64,000 nt of DNA, taken from assembly GCF_000011185.1 (NCBI RefSeq), contig NC_002689.2:186001-250000 (forward strand), given 5' to 3'. The stretch is from Thermoplasma volcanium GSS1. GTDB lineage: Archaea > Thermoplasmatota > Thermoplasmata > Thermoplasmatales > Thermoplasmataceae. The translations under genes and the position numbers were made by a program. Below, piece by piece: positions 2,165-29,258 of the stretch; the stretch's first letter is position 1; the number at the start of each line of letters is the position of its first letter. A model generated the notes under the pieces. That model was given only the letters and a program-made list of their open reading frames with translations, was not told the DNA's origin and did not search any database.

Positions 2165-2691
2165 CTTATCAACTTTCCAAAATTTATAAAGTCATAATAC
2201 CTGTTGCCAATCCTTATCGAATCCTTTTCTACACCTTCTATGCTGAATCCATTTCTCATCAGGACGATCATTGATGGATAATTCCCCTCAATTACAGATG
2301 TATACAATCTATGAAATCCATCGTTTTTAGCATATTCTACTATAAGACGAAGGGATTCGGTGGCTATCCCTTTCCCTCGAAATTTCTTTCCGATCCAGTA
2401 ACCTACGTGAGCCTTCTTATCTGTCCTATCGATTTCGCTGAGCCCTATTATCCCTGCGGGGCCTCCTTTATATTTTATAAGAAAGTCAATTCTAAAAGCC
2501 TCTTTTCCATAGCCTCTCTCTGCTTCTATGAAAAATATTGCATCCTCTTTTGTATAGGGATACGGAAAGGAATGGCTGCCGATGTTACGTTTTATGGTAC
2601 GGTCATTTGCGAGCCTTGCGATATCATCTGCGTATTCTATTCCAATTGGACTTTCAAGCGTGACATCCATCCTTGACGAGGATACGATCAT
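2161..2691 (-). CDS. GNAT N-acetyltransferase, RimJ/RimL-like
   Basis: A 176-residue GNAT protein. The acetyl-CoA pyrophosphate loop is visible as RGKGIATES around residues 120-130, followed by the GFHRLYTSV strand and the typical C-terminal N-x-PS-x-x-x-x-x-RNGF motif. This places it with the RimJ/RimL group, which acetylates N-termini of proteins or small molecules; the substrate cannot be read here. The ATG at 2691 lies about 27 bases from a TATA-like TTTTAAATAA on the minus strand, consistent with a leaderless start of the GNAT-ipk-fni-zpr1 operon. A second ATG at 2670 is possible. Why an acetyltransferase leads an isoprenoid operon is not clear. Confidence 0.85.
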   Translation of the reverse strand: MIVSSSRMDVTLESPIGIEYADDIARLANDRTIKRNIGSHSFPYPYTKEDAIFFIEAERGYGKEAFRIDFLIKYKGGPAGIIGLSEIDRTDKKAHVGYWIGKKFRGKGIATESLRLIVEYAKNDGFHRLYTSVIEGNYPSMIVLMRNGFSIEGVEKDSIRIGNRYYDFINFGKLIR

Positions 2692-2776
2692 TGAGAGAGT
2701 ATGTTATGGTTATTTAAAATGTAATGCAACTTGCAGTACAGAAATAGTTATTGTCAATTACAGCATTACATTAAAC

Positions 2777-3568
2777 ATGAGCGATGACGTAGTGGTTAAA
2801 CTCTTGAACGATGGCTATTTTTCATTGGATGCAGGTGCTTATTTCGGTGTGGTCCCAAAGGCCATTTGGTCTCGAAAATTTCAGGAAATAGACAATACTG
2901 TTAGATTGGCCACAAATGTACTCTATATCACTGAAAGCGACGGAACGTCCATACTCGTTGACAGTGGTATAGGAAATAAATTCGATGATAAATTTAGGAA
3001 AATATACAGGGTTGAAAAACAGTCTGATATATATGAATATATAAGACTGCATGGAGATCCAAATTCCGTGAGGATGATAATTAATTCGCACCTTCACTTT
3101 GATCACGTTGGCCATAACGCTGATTTCAAGAACGCTTATGCATATGCACAGGCTGATGAATTTAAGGCAGCAAGGTATAGAAACTATATAACTAAAGCAA
3201 ATTATCGGTTATCAGCATCTCAAATAAAGAACAAGGTAGAAATTGGAGGGTCTAAGAGGATCAACGGTTTCATAAGGGTGATAAAAACGGATGGCCATAC
3301 GCCGGGGCACCAGGTAATACTTATCAACGCCGGAGGCAGAAAGATCATGTATTTCGGTGATATAGTACCTTCAACCTTCCATCTCAAGTTGCCTTACAGG
3401 ACGGCTATTGACCTTGATCCCCTGAAAACAATAGAGTTTAAGAAAAATCTTGTTAAAATGGCCATACGTGAAAACTACATATGCATATTCAACCATGATG
3501 TCGAAACACCTGCAGCAATTCTCAGCGGTGATTATAGCGATCCAAAATACGTTAAGGTCGATATTTGA
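2777..3568 (+). CDS. metallo-beta-lactamase-fold hydrolase
   Basis: A 263-residue protein with the binuclear metal motif HLHFDH (H105, H107, D109, H110). Further ligands are the His of GHTPGH, the Asp of YFGDIV and the His of FNHDVE, which completes an active MBL site. The overall pattern resembles the lactonase-like branch (AiiA/AttM-like), but the substrate is unknown. The frame is open upstream to 2582, but that extension crosses the divergent promoter region and overlaps the GNAT gene. The ATG at 2777 starts the conserved fold and has a TATA-like AT-rich stretch near 2744-2752, so it is preferred. The gene is monocistronic. Confidence 0.85.
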   Translation: MSDDVVVKLLNDGYFSLDAGAYFGVVPKAIWSRKFQEIDNTVRLATNVLYITESDGTSILVDSGIGNKFDDKFRKIYRVEKQSDIYEYIRLHGDPNSVRMIINSHLHFDHVGHNADFKNAYAYAQADEFKAARYRNYITKANYRLSASQIKNKVEIGGSKRINGFIRVIKTDGHTPGHQVILINAGGRKIMYFGDIVPSTFHLKLPYRTAIDLDPLKTIEFKKNLVKMAIRENYICIFNHDVETPAAILSGDYSDPKYVKVDI

Positions 3569-3620
3569 TCTAACAAATTTGTAAAAAGAAGTTAAAAGGC
3601 ATGTTCGCCTTACTTTTTAT

Positions 3621-22121: not shown

Positions 22122-22286
22122 TTTTGATTCAGTTATTCTTTTTTAATAATTAGATTTCTTTATGCACCGTGAAATGCTTGATTATTTAAAATTATTAGAA
22201 AACGATTGTATTGAGATCAATTAGAATAATTTCCATAGTTATTATAAATAATATTTTTCTATCCAATAAAACGTAAGAACAACTGC

Positions 22287-23075
22287 ATGGATTGGGAGAC
22301 TCTGAAAATTCTTATATATATTGAACACTGTGGTCCGGCAAAAATATTATTAGAGAGTTATGGAGAATATCCTTAAAATGATTGTTATTCTAATTATACA
22401 GAGCTTCCAAACCCTTTCGCGTAAATCGAAGAAGATCGATCTGCACTCAATAAATAAGAAGATAACACATCTTTATTCTTTAAAATCCATAGCAGCAGTT
22501 GATTAGTTCATGATGTACATGCAAGTACTCAGCTACAGAAAGGAGAAAAAAACAATAAATATAAGGGTCCTGATTCTAGATTGTCTAGTATAACTAAGGT
22601 ACAAACAATGGCAGGAAATGCCATGTTACCTTGGCCATGTATTCACTTTTTATAATGGAGTGAAAGGTCACTAAAAAACGCGCATGATTCGAAATATGCA
22701 AATAACATGATCGATTCAATTAGGTATTTCTCGTACTTGTTTGTAGATTCTTTGTACGATGCATCAGAGATATATGATTATGTACTGGAAAATACTCACG
22801 TAATTCCAATAATCGATGCGAGCGAGAGGAGAGGCATTGTGACAGAAAAATTGCCAGACAACAGCAGAATAGATATCAATTTAAGAAGGAAGTATCCCTC
22901 CTTATATTCCCTGAAGTTTGGGATAGAAAGAATGTTCACCATACTTGAAATATCGTATAAATTGAGCATATGGGATGTGAGGAATCGATCCTATAATACT
23001 GCAGTTGGCCTGAAGATAATTGTATATAATTTAATCATTATGTCAAACATGAAATTGGGAGAAAATATAAGATAG
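22287..23075 (+). pseudogene. decayed DDE transposase (IS4/IS5-like) remnant
   Basis: The last part, 22707-23075, is an open frame of 122 codons. It contains a DSLYD motif and, near its end, YSLKFGIERMFTILEI, the Y-(2)-R/K-(3)-E-(6)-type C-terminal block of DDE transposases, followed by an R-x-R segment and a hydrophobic tail. Upstream (22287-22700) short frame fragments such as MDWETLKIL and RKSKKIDLHS are separated by stops and frameshifts and suggest the N-terminal half. No terminal repeats could be placed. It lies immediately 5' of the sugar ABC operon. Bases 22122-22286 hold nothing recognisable beyond AT-rich spacer. Confidence 0.55.
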
Positions 23076-23199
23076 ATCACGAATATTCTTTCTTGCTAAA
23101 ATCGAGACATTCTAAAATTAAGCCATATTGAATAAATGGGGTTAATATTAGTCAATATAGTATATCCTTTGTATATGATACCAGATATAGTAGTAAAAA

Positions 23200-23229: not shown

Positions 23230-24789
23230 ATGGAAAGCAGTAGTTCTGATATTAAACCTAAAAGAAAGATTTGGTCATATATAGTTATAGTGGTTGTTTT
23301 GGCTGCTGTAATCGGTGGTGTAGTCTATTACTACTCTACGCTCCCCCATCCAACAAAGCAAGTAACAATTACAGTCGCAGCTCCTGTTTATTCTTCATCC
23401 GCTACAGATTGGGAAAACTTTATAAATAATGCGACGAAAAGCTGGCAAGCTGAACATCCTAACGTTAAGGTAGAATTTATAGGTCCACTGGGGGCTAGTA
23501 GTGAAGGTCAATATTATACTAAGTTGGATTTGTTAACCTCATCATCATCAACTGCGCCTACTGTAATGTTAGAAGATATGTTTTATACAGCAACTTATCA
23601 GTCAGAAGGTATATTAGCACCTTTAAATTCATACATAAACTCAAGTTTCTTTAATAATATTTTTCCATCAGCTTTGGGTCAGATGACTATTGGTGGTATT
23701 CACTACGGCTTACCTGCCCAAGTTACGGATACATTGATATATTATAATATAACATTACTGCAAAAAGCAGGTGTGATACCATCAGATAGCACTACATGGC
23801 AGCCGACAAATTGGACTGAAATAATAAATGCTGCAAAGCAAATAAATAGCACTCTTGTACCTAATGATCCAGGTTTGATTCCACTGAATATATACGAGGG
23901 TGTTAAAGGAGATGAGGCATCTTCATTCACGGGATTTGAAGGGCTATTGTACGGCACTGGATATGGTTTATACAATTTTACAGATCATAAATGGTACGGT
24001 TATAGTCCAGGGTTAAACGAAACATTTGAATTCTATAAAACAGTCTTTGGAGAAGGTCTTGCAACGCCAGCACTGAGTGCGACTCCATACATAACAGCAG
24101 GACAGTATATGCAGGAAGGAAAATTAGCAATAGATATAGATGGGAGCTGGATGTATGGATATCAATGGGCACCTGGGGCACAACATCCTATAAGTAATTT
24201 CTCAAAATATATAGGAGTTGCTAAAATACCAACCTACAGTGGGCAAGCTCCAGGATTCAACACAATGGTTGGTGGATGGGGCTGGGCTATGTACAATGGT
24301 ACACCTTCATCTGAAAAACCACTAGTCGCCTCATTCATGATGGCCCTTGATAATACATCTAATCAGATATTGATAAATGAGCCGGGTCAAGCCCTAGCTG
24401 GCGGATTACCAACTGCAAAGAATGCCGTAAACAATCCGAATTTCAGTAAACTTATGCCGACAGACCCATCCCTAGATACATTCTTTACAAATATACTTAA
24501 ATATGGCAGTTACAGGCCTCCGGTAGCTACATATCCTAAAGTTTCATATGTGCTTCAGGAAGTAATGGGGTACATTGTGAGCGATGGTTATAGTGTTTCT
24601 AAAGCAGCATCAACGTATAATTCATTACTTACATCTGCAGTGGGAGCGTCTAATGTGATGTCAGCCATCACATCTTATACACCATCTTTCATTGCTGATC
24701 ACCGCAATTTCGAGAGCAGTCAATATAATTATCTACTTAGTCTATATTTAAATACTTCCTTATTATTTTTAAGCCAAATCTTCTGGTGA
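23230..24789 (+). CDS. sugar ABC transporter substrate-binding protein (family 1)
   Basis: A 519-residue extracytoplasmic solute-binding protein. A short basic cytoplasmic tail (KPKRKIW) precedes one membrane anchor (about residues 15-37), then a Ser/Thr/Asn-rich binding domain. Family-1 features include ASSEGQYYTKLDLL, the GIHYGLPAQVTDTLIYYN segment and a GSWMYGYQWAPG ligand-pocket region rich in Trp and Tyr. Many N-x-S/T sites would be exposed. It binds an oligosaccharide, probably an alpha-mannoside given the GH38 gene downstream (inference). Base use is markedly AT-richer than the core genes. First gene of a four-gene operon. Confidence 0.9.
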   Translation: MESSSSDIKPKRKIWSYIVIVVVLAAVIGGVVYYYSTLPHPTKQVTITVAAPVYSSSATDWENFINNATKSWQAEHPNVKVEFIGPLGASSEGQYYTKLDLLTSSSSTAPTVMLEDMFYTATYQSEGILAPLNSYINSSFFNNIFPSALGQMTIGGIHYGLPAQVTDTLIYYNITLLQKAGVIPSDSTTWQPTNWTEIINAAKQINSTLVPNDPGLIPLNIYEGVKGDEASSFTGFEGLLYGTGYGLYNFTDHKWYGYSPGLNETFEFYKTVFGEGLATPALSATPYITAGQYMQEGKLAIDIDGSWMYGYQWAPGAQHPISNFSKYIGVAKIPTYSGQAPGFNTMVGGWGWAMYNGTPSSEKPLVASFMMALDNTSNQILINEPGQALAGGLPTAKNAVNNPNFSKLMPTDPSLDTFFTNILKYGSYRPPVATYPKVSYVLQEVMGYIVSDGYSVSKAASTYNSLLTSAVGASNVMSAITSYTPSFIADHRNFESSQYNYLLSLYLNTSLLFLSQIFW

Positions 24790-24796
24790 AGTTAAA

Positions 24797-25687
24797 ATGC
24801 AACGTATTTCAGGAAGAAACTCAATATTGAAAAAAAACGCTATTTTTTTGATATTGATTCCGTCTTTTATTTATTTAATTATTTTTTTTATATACCCGAT
24901 ATTTTTGTCTTTTAAATATTCATTCACCAATTTATCATTATATGATATTAATAAGTATAGCTTTATTGGATTTACTAACTATGTAGATTTATTTAAGAGT
25001 GATCTATTTTTAAAATCAATATATATAACGATTATATTCTTGGTTGTTTCTGCAATAATAGGGCAGATGTTTTTAGGTTCTATACTTGCTTATCTACTAA
25101 CACTGACGCACAAGTATTTTAAAACGGTTGTAACTACAATTATACTTATTGCTTGGGCAACACCACAAGTTACGGCAGGCATAATGTGGTATAGTACGTT
25201 AAGTTATATACCAGAAGGAACTATAAATGTTATACTAAAGAATATGGGGTTTCATCCTATTGATTTCTTCTCCATTCATAATGCAATATATTCAATTATT
25301 ATAGCTAACATTTGGATAGGTTTAGGTTTCTCCGTGTTAATATTCCTAGGTGGAATACAGAGCATTGATCCTTCTATAATAAAAGCATCATATATTGATG
25401 GTGCAAAGCCTTTTAGAAGGTTCTTTTCTATAATATTCCCACTTCTAAAGACAAATATAATCACAGATTTGTTATTGATAACTTTATTCACGCTCGGAAC
25501 ATTTACATTAATATATGTACTTACTGCAGGTGGACCTGCGGGCAGTACCGAGTTGCTTACAATTTATCAATATGAAACTGGTTTCTCCCTATTCTCACTT
25601 GGTTTAGCAAATGCAATTGGTGTTATTATTATTATCATTGCTTTAGTGCTTTCACTAATATACCTTAGATTCATAAAGGTGAGTTGA
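24797..25687 (+). CDS. sugar ABC transporter permease, MalF/UgpA-like
   Basis: A 296-residue permease with six predicted membrane helices and the EAA loop as ASYIDGAKPFRRFFSIIFP in the cytoplasmic coupling region. It forms a heterodimer with the next permease and docks on the ATPase. A Shine-Dalgarno GGTGA overlapping the upstream stop lies about 8 bases before the ATG. Codon use is strongly AT-biased like its neighbours. Confidence 0.92.
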   Translation: MQRISGRNSILKKNAIFLILIPSFIYLIIFFIYPIFLSFKYSFTNLSLYDINKYSFIGFTNYVDLFKSDLFLKSIYITIIFLVVSAIIGQMFLGSILAYLLTLTHKYFKTVVTTIILIAWATPQVTAGIMWYSTLSYIPEGTINVILKNMGFHPIDFFSIHNAIYSIIIANIWIGLGFSVLIFLGGIQSIDPSIIKASYIDGAKPFRRFFSIIFPLLKTNIITDLLLITLFTLGTFTLIYVLTAGGPAGSTELLTIYQYETGFSLFSLGLANAIGVIIIIIALVLSLIYLRFIKVS

Positions 25688-25688
25688 A

Positions 25689-26495
25689 ATGGATATTAAA
25701 AAATTCGTAATATATATATTTTTATCATTGCTCGGCGTTTTGTTCTTAATACCATTCATTTGGCTAATTAATGAAGCTTTTAGTCCATTAAACGATATCG
25801 GCTTAAAATTTCCATCATATTATACTTTAGTTCCATTTTATAACGTTATGACAAATAAAATATTCGTAAACTCAATATATGAAGGTCTAATACAATCATT
25901 CGGGGCAACATTTTTATCAGTATTGTTTTCTGTTGGTCCAGCGTATATATTTTCTAGGAAAAGATTCAGATTTAGAATACCTCTGCTATTAGGTATATTG
26001 CTTCTAACTGGTTTTCCGGTGTTTTCGTTATTAATACCAGAATACGTATTTTATGTCAAAACGTCACTGTACAACAACTTAATTGGAGTCATTTTATTTC
26101 TGGGAGTATTAAATGTACCAATAGATATATGGATATTAAAGAATTCATTCGATCAAATTCCTTCTGCTATTGAAAACGCCTCATATATAGACGGAGCCTC
26201 TAGTTTTAAATCAATGCTTTATATTTTTTTACCACTTGCTACACCGGTTTTGGCAGTTTTGATAATATTGGATTTCGTGATCAATTGGGGAAACTTCTAC
26301 GTTCCTTACATTTTACTTTCTTCAGCACGTTTATTTCCAGTATCGGTTGAAATATACAGTTTCTTTGGGGCGTATAATGTGAAATATAATGAGTTAGCAG
26401 CATTTTCTATAATATACACTGTTCCTGCTGTAATTTTATACATATTCGCACAAAAATATATGATAAAAGCACTATCTGGAGGAATAAAAGGATGA
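25689..26495 (+). CDS. sugar ABC transporter permease, MalG/UgpE-like
   Basis: A 268-residue permease with six membrane helices and the EAA motif ASYIDGASSFKSMLYIFLPLATP. It starts one base after the previous stop, with AAGGTGAG five bases upstream. It completes the transmembrane channel of the importer. MalG-type partners are short and lack the extra N-terminal domain, as here. Confidence 0.92.
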   Translation: MDIKKFVIYIFLSLLGVLFLIPFIWLINEAFSPLNDIGLKFPSYYTLVPFYNVMTNKIFVNSIYEGLIQSFGATFLSVLFSVGPAYIFSRKRFRFRIPLLLGILLLTGFPVFSLLIPEYVFYVKTSLYNNLIGVILFLGVLNVPIDIWILKNSFDQIPSAIENASYIDGASSFKSMLYIFLPLATPVLAVLIILDFVINWGNFYVPYILLSSARLFPVSVEIYSFFGAYNVKYNELAAFSIIYTVPAVILYIFAQKYMIKALSGGIKG

Positions 26496-26537
26496 CATTT
26501 TTAACCTTTTGAATATAGGTATACTGAGGTGACCAAA

Positions 26538-27590
26538 ATGGTGAACGTAAGAGTAGTGGATGTATACAAATCATACGGTAAAGTACAAGTATTGAAAGGT
26601 ATAAATTTCAATATAGAAGACGGGGAATTTTTTGTATTGCTAGGGTCTTCCGGCGCTGGAAAATCAACTTTATTAAATATTCTCGCCGGTTTGGAAGCTG
26701 TAGACAGTGGAAGTATCTTCTTTGATGATAAGATTGTTAATGACTTGCCACCTGTAGAGAGGGGGGTAGCTATGGTTTTTCAAAATTATGCATTATATCC
26801 CCACATGACAGTATATAAAAATATGGCGTTTCCATTGAAAATGCTAAATTATAAAAAAGATAGTATAGATCGAATCGTCAAAAAAGTAGCTGAAACTTTA
26901 GATATAACATGGTTACTTAATAGATACCCGCGTGAATTATCTGGAGGGCAAGCACAACGAGTTGCACTTGGAAGAGCATTAGTACGTGATCCAAAGATAT
27001 TTTTATTGGATGAACCACTAAGTAATCTAGATGCGAATATAAGATCAAAGATAAGAAACGAATTAAAATTAATGCAAAAACAATTAAATAAAACATTTAT
27101 TTATGTAACACATGATCAAATGGAGGCAATGTCACTTGGAGACCACATAGGAATTTTACACAATGGCGTATTGGAACAATATGGAAGGCCAATAGATATA
27201 TATAATAACCCGATAAATGAATATATTGCAACCTTTCTTGGAGATCCAGAAATAAATATGCTATCATGCATAAAATATCGGGATGTATATGAATGCGATG
27301 GCTCCATAAAATTTAAATTGGATTTAGATGATAAAAAGATTACATTAGGAATAAGACCAGAAAATATATATCTTCATAGACAAAATGATAATGACATAGA
27401 AGGAAAAATAATACCTAAAGTCTCAGAATTGTTAGGTTCGCATACATTGATAATTGGATCTGTAGAAAATAAAGAAATAAGAATCGTTACTGAAGAAACA
27501 AATATAAGCATAGGGAAGGAAATTCCAATATACATTAATTTGAATAAATGTCTTATATTTAATGAAAAAGGAGAAAATATTAATAAATAA
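26538..27590 (+). CDS. sugar ABC transporter ATP-binding protein, MalK/MsmK-like
   Basis: A 350-residue ATPase. Walker A is GSSGAGKST (36-44), the Q-loop QNYALYPHM, signature LSGGQAQRVALGRA, Walker B FLLDEPLSNLD and the switch His in THDQ. The C-terminal third (about 235-350) is the OB/TOBE regulatory domain of the MalK/UgpC family, with GIRPENIYL. A GTG at 26529 also opens the frame, but GAGGTGA at 26526-26532 is correctly spaced for the ATG at 26538, which is chosen. The 3' end overlaps the convergent small secreted-protein gene by 11 bases. Confidence 0.93.
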   Translation: MVNVRVVDVYKSYGKVQVLKGINFNIEDGEFFVLLGSSGAGKSTLLNILAGLEAVDSGSIFFDDKIVNDLPPVERGVAMVFQNYALYPHMTVYKNMAFPLKMLNYKKDSIDRIVKKVAETLDITWLLNRYPRELSGGQAQRVALGRALVRDPKIFLLDEPLSNLDANIRSKIRNELKLMQKQLNKTFIYVTHDQMEAMSLGDHIGILHNGVLEQYGRPIDIYNNPINEYIATFLGDPEINMLSCIKYRDVYECDGSIKFKLDLDDKKITLGIRPENIYLHRQNDNDIEGKIIPKVSELLGSHTLIIGSVENKEIRIVTEETNISIGKEIPIYINLNKCLIFNEKGENINK

Positions 27591-28045
27591 CAGTCTCAGG
27601 TACACTGCCAACCAAATGTAACGAGATATAGCCATTATAGTAATAGTTAGGTGATTTGATAGTTATATTTAATATTCCTATATTTTCTTCAAGAGATCCA
27701 ATAAATTTGCCTTGACTAGTGCCGTATTTTATATACGTATTAAAATAGAATATCCACCCCAAAACACAGAATCCAGATGTTTGAGTATATACATAGTTTA
27801 TTGATATATTTGAATTGAAAAGTATTGTAATATTAAAGTCGGAACCGGAATTTATATGATGTGGAAAAATGATTTTCGTATAGCTTTGGTTAATATTGAC
27901 TTGTCCTATGTAAACATTACTTAGTATATCTTCCTCTGGTTGATCAGTACTTTTGCCCCAATGATAATAGACATAGCCTGACATTACGATTATTACTGAA
28001 AACGTAACAATAACAAATAAAGCAACTAATTTTTTGTAATTGAGC
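27580..28045 (-). CDS. small membrane-anchored extracytoplasmic protein, unknown
   Basis: A 155-residue protein. It has an N-terminal signal or anchor helix (about residues 8-28) and then an Asn/Tyr/Ser/Ile-rich beta-type domain with several N-x-S/T sequons. I recognise no family. The start is a GTG at 28047-28045, about 25 bases from a TATA-like TTTTTATATC on the minus strand, so it is probably leaderless. It converges on the ABC ATPase gene, overlapping its stop. Its AT-rich composition matches the island. It could be an accessory surface protein for sugar capture, but nothing in the sequence shows that. Confidence 0.6.
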
Positions 28046-28087
28046 ACTAGTAAAATAGCACATTTTGATATAAAAATATTCCTGCCT

Positions 28088-29243
28088 GGTGTCCAAATCT
28101 TGTATTTTTATAAAGGATGCCTCACATGGAACATGTCCATTTCTCGTACATGCATTTATATTATCCTTTTAGTGTTGTTGGATGATATTTATTCTCCTAC
28201 TTATCTTATGTTCGTTAATTCGATGGGATTAGTAGAATGTATCGATCTCCTTATTTATTCGGACAATAGTATTTTAGGAGTGAGTTTAAGTTCTTCCCCA
28301 TATTGTATATAGGCCTAGTATACTTCTCTGGCCATTTATTTTTGAATTCATCGAACATGCTTATTGCTTCTTCTTTAGTTCGTAATAGCAATATTTACTT
28401 AAGACCGGAATAGATTTTATTTATATTGTGATCTCTTACATTTGATTGGAAATTCCTTGATGCATGTATTGTACGTAAATAGAAATAAGCTCTAGGATAC
28501 AATTCTTTGATCTCTTCCCCTATTTCGGGCATGTCCACTATGAACAAAGCTGTTGGTTGAAGCCTCTCTTCATTAGATCGATCAATACATTTCCATATGC
28601 TGTATTATTTCCTATGGGATTCATGTAGAATCCTAGGATTTTTTATTATCCGTTATATCGTATCACCATTGCAAATATTACATGTCAGTTTGTACTATAT
28701 CCCTTCTCAACGAAAAGAACATTGAATACATGAAAATTCCAACTTATCTTTTATACAATTGCCGTTGTAAACATTTCTTATTTCCAGAACTGTTATGTCT
28801 GTTATTCGTGATATTATTGATCTGCTGTATCTATTGTGAAATGATTATTCTAGGATATCAGCAATCTTCCCTGTTGACATATCCTTTGAATACATTGATA
28901 TTATTCTGTGCGTACCAATATTCCTCTAATACTTGTCTAACAAAGCAGTATGGAATTCATTTCTACAATCCGTACGCACATGTATCATCGATATTTCCAT
29001 ACCTTGCTCCAAGATCTCTTTCACAATTTCTATGTCTATAGTTCTCTTCTATAAATATCCGAAGATCGCTTCATTGGAGATTCCATAAACTCTTTAAGAG
29101 CCGATCCCACTATCTCATATACCTCTCTATCCAGTCCTTCCACTAGATCTTGGTTCCTCTTGGAAAAGGTATTTTTTTGTTTTTCATGAAATTTTTCTCA
29201 TGATCATAGTACTATTTCTATAAATTACACAAAATTCAGGATT
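28088..29243 (-). mobile_element. decayed IS256-family (mutator-type) insertion sequence
   Basis: Reading the minus strand in shifting frames recovers ordered fragments of an IS256-type transposase. They are DREVYEIVGSALKEFMESP, then a TDCRNEFHTALLDKY block, ISMYSKDMSTGKIADILE, ILGFYMN, LIDLMKRGF, a LFIVDMPEIGEEIKELYPRA block, HASRNFQSNVRD and, near 28230, RRSIHSTNPIEL (the IRRxIYTTNxIE motif). At least eight stops or frameshifts interrupt it. The ends look like imperfect inverted repeats, about 28090-28113 (TCCAAATCTTGT then TTTTTATAAA) against 29215-29241 (TCCTGAATTTTGTG then TAATTTATA). The element cannot make transposase. Confidence 0.72.
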
Positions 29244-29258
29244 CTATATTAAATAATC

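Follow-up and report, generated by a model that had tools for sequence, protein, structure and literature searches.

The window analyzed here is a 64,000-nucleotide stretch of the Thermoplasma volcanium GSS1 genome (G000:C1:186001-250000, with window position 1 at G000:C1:186001). Between 23 and 33 kb of the window, four plus-strand genes for a substrate-binding protein, two permeases, and an ATPase are followed by a small minus-strand ORF, S, then by an apparent intergenic gap, and finally by a plus-strand GH38 mannosidase gene. Judging from its sequence, the gap is filled by the remains of an IS256-family insertion sequence (28086-29248), dead but almost full-length, with its transposase on the minus strand. 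The features of this region are as follows, where c1251, c933, and c1482 are sibling copies elsewhere in the same genome and L077 and L078 are intact relatives from another genome.

23230-27590, plus strand: sugar-type ABC transporter operon (substrate-binding protein, two permeases, ATPase)
27580-28047, minus strand: small ORF S, convergent with the operon and conserved in genomes G012 and G016
28086-29248, minus strand: decayed IS256-family insertion sequence, end to end; approximate limits, set by siblings c1251 and c933 and the intact relatives L077 and L078
28086-28109, minus strand: worn right terminal inverted repeat; pattern match at G000:C1:214086-214105 with 3 mismatches, and aligned right ends
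28105-28564, minus strand: 460-bp tract identical to c1482, with shared lesions and divergence on both sides (copy alignment)
28105-29011, minus strand: 907-bp tract with 17 differences to c1251 (copy alignment)
28111-29143, minus strand: transposase pseudogene (frameshift-aware alignment to L077; same lesions against L078)
29225-29248, minus strand: worn left terminal inverted repeat on the 5' side of the transposase; aligns with the left ends of c933, c1251, L077, and L078
29286-32327, plus strand: GH38 alpha-mannosidase gene, starting 38 bp beyond the element (Pfam Glyco_hydro_38N, 1.8e-70)

A preliminary description of this DNA had proposed that a cryptic IS256-family element was hidden in the gap, and both searches bore this out. 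The Pfam Transposase_mut profile (PF00872) matches window positions 28263-28970 on the minus strand (G000:C1:214263-214970) with E=1.8e-13 and seven in-frame stops, and the frameshift-aware alignment, on which the proposal stood or fell, finds a mutator/IS256-type transposase. The references for that alignment were two intact IS256 loci from a genome of the same family (G014), L077 and L078 (i77 and i78), which encode 379-aa products and match the NCBIfam model transpos_IS256 (NF033543) at 3.8e-106 and 5.7e-104, respectively. Residues 2-379 of the L077 transposase align with window 29143-28111 with a score of 807 and 200 identities in 378 residues, whereas three shuffles scored 37, 40, and 48 and the opposite strand 62. 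With a 1236-base query, DNA identity to the window copy is 69% for L077 (160-1198) and 68% for L078 (133-1198). The landmark with which the preliminary description had closed its reading, RRSIHSTNPIEL, is present in the window copy and lies opposite RRSIHSTNLIER of the intact protein. By eye, both L077 and L078 also show a short overlapping frame, some 21 codons long, ahead of the transposase ATG, which may reflect translational coupling.

Against L077, the transposase frame of the window copy is broken by 5 stops and about 10 frameshifts; the alignment takes 11 frameshift steps, but two of these offset each other. Alignment to L078 gives the same picture, with a 25-residue deletion in the window transposase placed at residues 331-355 of L078, near window 28191. 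The earlier estimate of about eight stops or shifts was thus an undercount, as alignment to these two proteins yields about 15 lesions, and the window copy can no longer make a transposase. The aspartate of the L078 motif FMDAMFF, which we take to be the first catalytic (DDE) residue of the IS256 transposase, is replaced by tyrosine in the window copy (FMYSMFF) and likewise in c1251, whereas the window copy retains the D and E motifs further on.

Members of the IS256 family have terminal inverted repeats of about 24-41 bp and produce target-site duplications of 8-9 bp. The window element shares apparent terminal repeats of about 22-24 bp with its siblings and with the relatives L077 and L078. 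A repeat search of the window copy by itself returned only unrelated pairs, and the terminal repeats had to be located from the siblings; the ends of c933, L077, and L078 align with the ends of the window copy. In a shuffle test the terminal repeats reached p=0.0005, the floor of the test, in each of c933, L077, and L078, with p=0.06 for the window copy and p=0.14 for c1251. Seen together with these aligned ends, the inverted repeats suspected earlier at 28090-28113 and 29215-29241 appear real, if worn, though they do not stand out in the window copy by itself; their positions were off by a few bases. Inspection by eye at the window copy, c1251, and c933 showed no target-site duplication, including the 8-9 bases that had been suggested as a check at the window site; such a duplication may be lost if a copy is old or rearranged. 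By eye, a 7-bp direct repeat flanks L078, and none was seen at L077 or L081.

A DNA search of the T. volcanium genome returned the window copy and matches at four other places, all of them broken:

G000:C1:1251295-1252411: sibling c1251, 93% identity
G000:C1:1482403-1482987: sibling c1482, 93% identity, 3' half only
G000:C1:932450-933584: sibling c933, in pieces within this interval, 75-95% identity
G000:C1, 1548 kb: IS256 fragment

The expected siblings thus exist as copies or fragments at four other loci, but none is intact in this genome. The PF00872 profile matches the genome eight times, always partially; six of these matches contain stops and the two stop-free ones are fragments covering 58 and 39 profile positions, so that no intact IS256-family gene was found at the sensitivity of this profile search. 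Sibling c1482 is truncated on its 5' side, where it adjoins open frames (L017, about 2560-3600, minus strand) that may represent another broken transposase.

Alignment of the dead IS256 copies shows that they form mosaics, in which blocks of exact identity lie beside strongly diverged ones. Window copy and c1482 differ at 0/460 positions within their shared tract, compared to 32/111 upstream and 8/19 downstream in an ungapped count; when gapped by hand, the downstream 19 bases show about 4 substitutions and one gap. Window copy and c1251 differ at 17/907 positions inside their tract (98% identity) and at 59/219 beyond it on the left, upstream side (about 73% identity). This outer left part of c1251 is close to c933, with 17/272 differences over 28955-29248 against 96/320 further in. 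A permutation test modeled on that of Sawyer was applied to five sequences, whose alignment offered 487 polymorphic sites, treated as independent, among 1050 columns free of gaps; c1482, which spans only half of the element, was for that reason excluded. All three pairs of dead copies gave p<=0.0005 (the floor), the two intact relatives gave 0.003, and the six mixed pairs ranged from 0.06 to 0.89.

Every window lesion of residues 204-379 is found in c1482, the 25-residue deletion included, and most of them occur in c1251. Six of the 15 lesions are common to the window copy and c933, and the local identity around these averages 88.7%, compared to 75.8% around the other nine (one-sided p=0.008, with the shared and unshared classes assigned by hand). 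Exceptions are the shared lesion FS369, which falls in a stretch that is 70% identical between these two copies, and four of the unshared lesions, whose surroundings are 82-86% identical.

Such a pattern would arise if IS256 copies died and stretches of them were then copied from locus to locus by gene conversion, a form of homologous recombination in which sequence is copied while the element itself stays in place. Blocks of exact identity that share stops and deletions would then lie beside blocks that have diverged strongly, as is seen in the mosaic. We consider it probable that the window element is a dead, almost full-length IS256 copy whose stretches were later exchanged among dead copies in this manner, the mechanism being read from the mosaic; this reading draws on few copies in a single genome sequence and reconstructs conversion from its products rather than from direct observation. 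Shared lesions alone would be compatible with either conversion or transposition of dead copies in trans. Under the latter, the dead element spread non-autonomously, moved by an intact relative that has since been lost, and the shared lesions simply reflect descent. Terminal repeats are recognizable in three copies, and lesions common to three or four copies are what would be expected if a dead copy moved before extinction of the insertion sequence. However, transposition copies ends and interior alike, whereas here the interiors match and the ends differ, as seen between the window copy and c1482 (0/460 differences inside, 8/19, ungapped, at the right end) and between the window copy and c1251 (17/907 inside, 59/219 at the left). 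The lack of visible target duplications at the three copies inspected and of a detectable intact IS256 gene in the genome also count against it. Because the patches are interior, stop before the element ends, and change partner from block to block, conversion fits better than descent in trans, which is an unlikely explanation of the mosaic as a whole. Movement in trans may nevertheless explain the dispersal of the oldest dead ancestor, and the two routes may be combined, with early spread of a dead copy followed by later conversion.

The element also lies at a gene-order junction. In G012, the mannosidase (70% identical) is found beyond the opposite end of the operon, divergent from the substrate-binding-protein gene and with starts about 110 bp apart, and in G016 a third arrangement is found in which the mannosidase faces and adjoins S, with S oriented as the operon. 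As these arrangements and that of the window all differ from one another, they do not fix the ancestral order. The mannosidase and S were not found in the four congeners searched, and the cassette was therefore either gained in T. volcanium or lost in the congeners. The preliminary description had supposed that insertion of the element split or joined the operon and the mannosidase gene; it does lie between them at a junction, but with three differing arrangements and no visible target duplication, insertion is only a possible cause. A single insertion at this site that split a formerly continuous transporter-mannosidase unit would account for the operon, S, and the mannosidase flanking the element, and for the linkage of all three in G012 and G016. 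Such an event seems distinctly unlikely, since the G012 mannosidase is at the opposite end of the operon, its G016 counterpart is in a different orientation facing S, the window order without the element occurs in none of the relatives examined, and the window copy shows no target duplication. The position of the element at this junction weakly suggests that IS copies could also have served here as recombination points for gene order.

An empty-site search at the siblings, with c1251 and c933 plus their flanks, in 20 relatives each, never found the flanks side by side. In G001, some 260 kb separate the homologs of the genes on either side of c1251, so that c1251 would also be at a gene-order break, although gene order may be poorly kept at such a distance and little is proven by this. 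Adjoining c1251 is L090 (G000:C1:1250058-1251227), presumably an enolase-superfamily, sugar-acid dehydratase-like gene, whose homolog in G012 (1032192-1033445) is separated from the mannosidase of that genome by about 7 kb. Of the full-length copies, the two that match best, those of the window and c1251, thus each border one of two genes whose homologs lie at this short distance in G012. A second decayed transposase, X, borders the transporter operon on its left (window 22241-23108, plus strand, with an ORF at 22707-23075). It shows about 38% identity with a 305-aa transposase that is intact in G012 and which we take to be IS5-like, and its only other match in the genome is at G000:C1:1249128-1249838, about 1.4 kb from c1251. 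An inversion of about 1 Mb via the X copies would unite the operon, the mannosidase, and the dehydratase, but was judged unlikely, as the X copies are 63% identical in DNA. We tentatively raise the possibility that the dead IS copies have stayed active as recombination partners long since the loss of the last transposase, overwriting tracts of several hundred bases and marking or causing the breakup of a sugar-uptake and degradation cluster, although we would not call this probable.

Two further accounts of the identical tract can be set aside. Preservation for an acquired role, for example in encoding a small antisense protein or an RNA, might be proposed from the antisense ORFs of 119 and 90 aa open within the window tract and the similar frames in c1251 (129 and 71 aa) and c1482 (71 aa), but was rejected as very improbable: 6 of the 10 codons changed between the window and c1251 in the 119-aa ORF alter the residue, an Rfam search of the tract gave no match, and the identity has sharp edges and spans transposase debris. 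Repeats are places where assemblies fail, but an assembly artefact is equally improbable here, as the genome is one contig of 1,584,804 bases (99.91% complete) and both the edges and the flanks vary among the copies, with identity changing by block, which simple collapse would not give.

In conclusion, an apparent intergenic gap is now explained as a fossil insertion sequence. Taken overall it is an ordinary fossil with a mosaic history of moderate interest, the mosaic being the part that is new here. The dead copies provide a small set of presumably neutral sequences for measuring inter-locus gene conversion in a Thermoplasma-type archaeon; we found no archaeal example of gene conversion among dead IS elements in the open-access literature, with most subscription papers outside the scope of that search. 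Like members of the IS256 family, the window transposase aligns end to end with the intact transposases of G014. Unlike functional members, the window copy has a broken frame, worn repeats, and no visible target duplication, and it is classed as a decayed remnant of the family. The G014 elements share its terminal repeat but have intact frames of 379 aa. The closest precedent may be Wolbachia wBm, where non-functional IS copies are described as kept alike by gene conversion (Cordaux 2009, as cited in PMC3196728); recombination between the ends of IS elements has also been reported in Wolbachia (PMC3004938). As cited there, the wBm case likewise involves IS copies of high similarity that carry multiple stops and frameshifts and are alike via conversion rather than transposition, while the T. 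volcanium case differs in being archaeal, in belonging to the IS256 family, and in comprising few copies with sharp-edged mosaic tracts.
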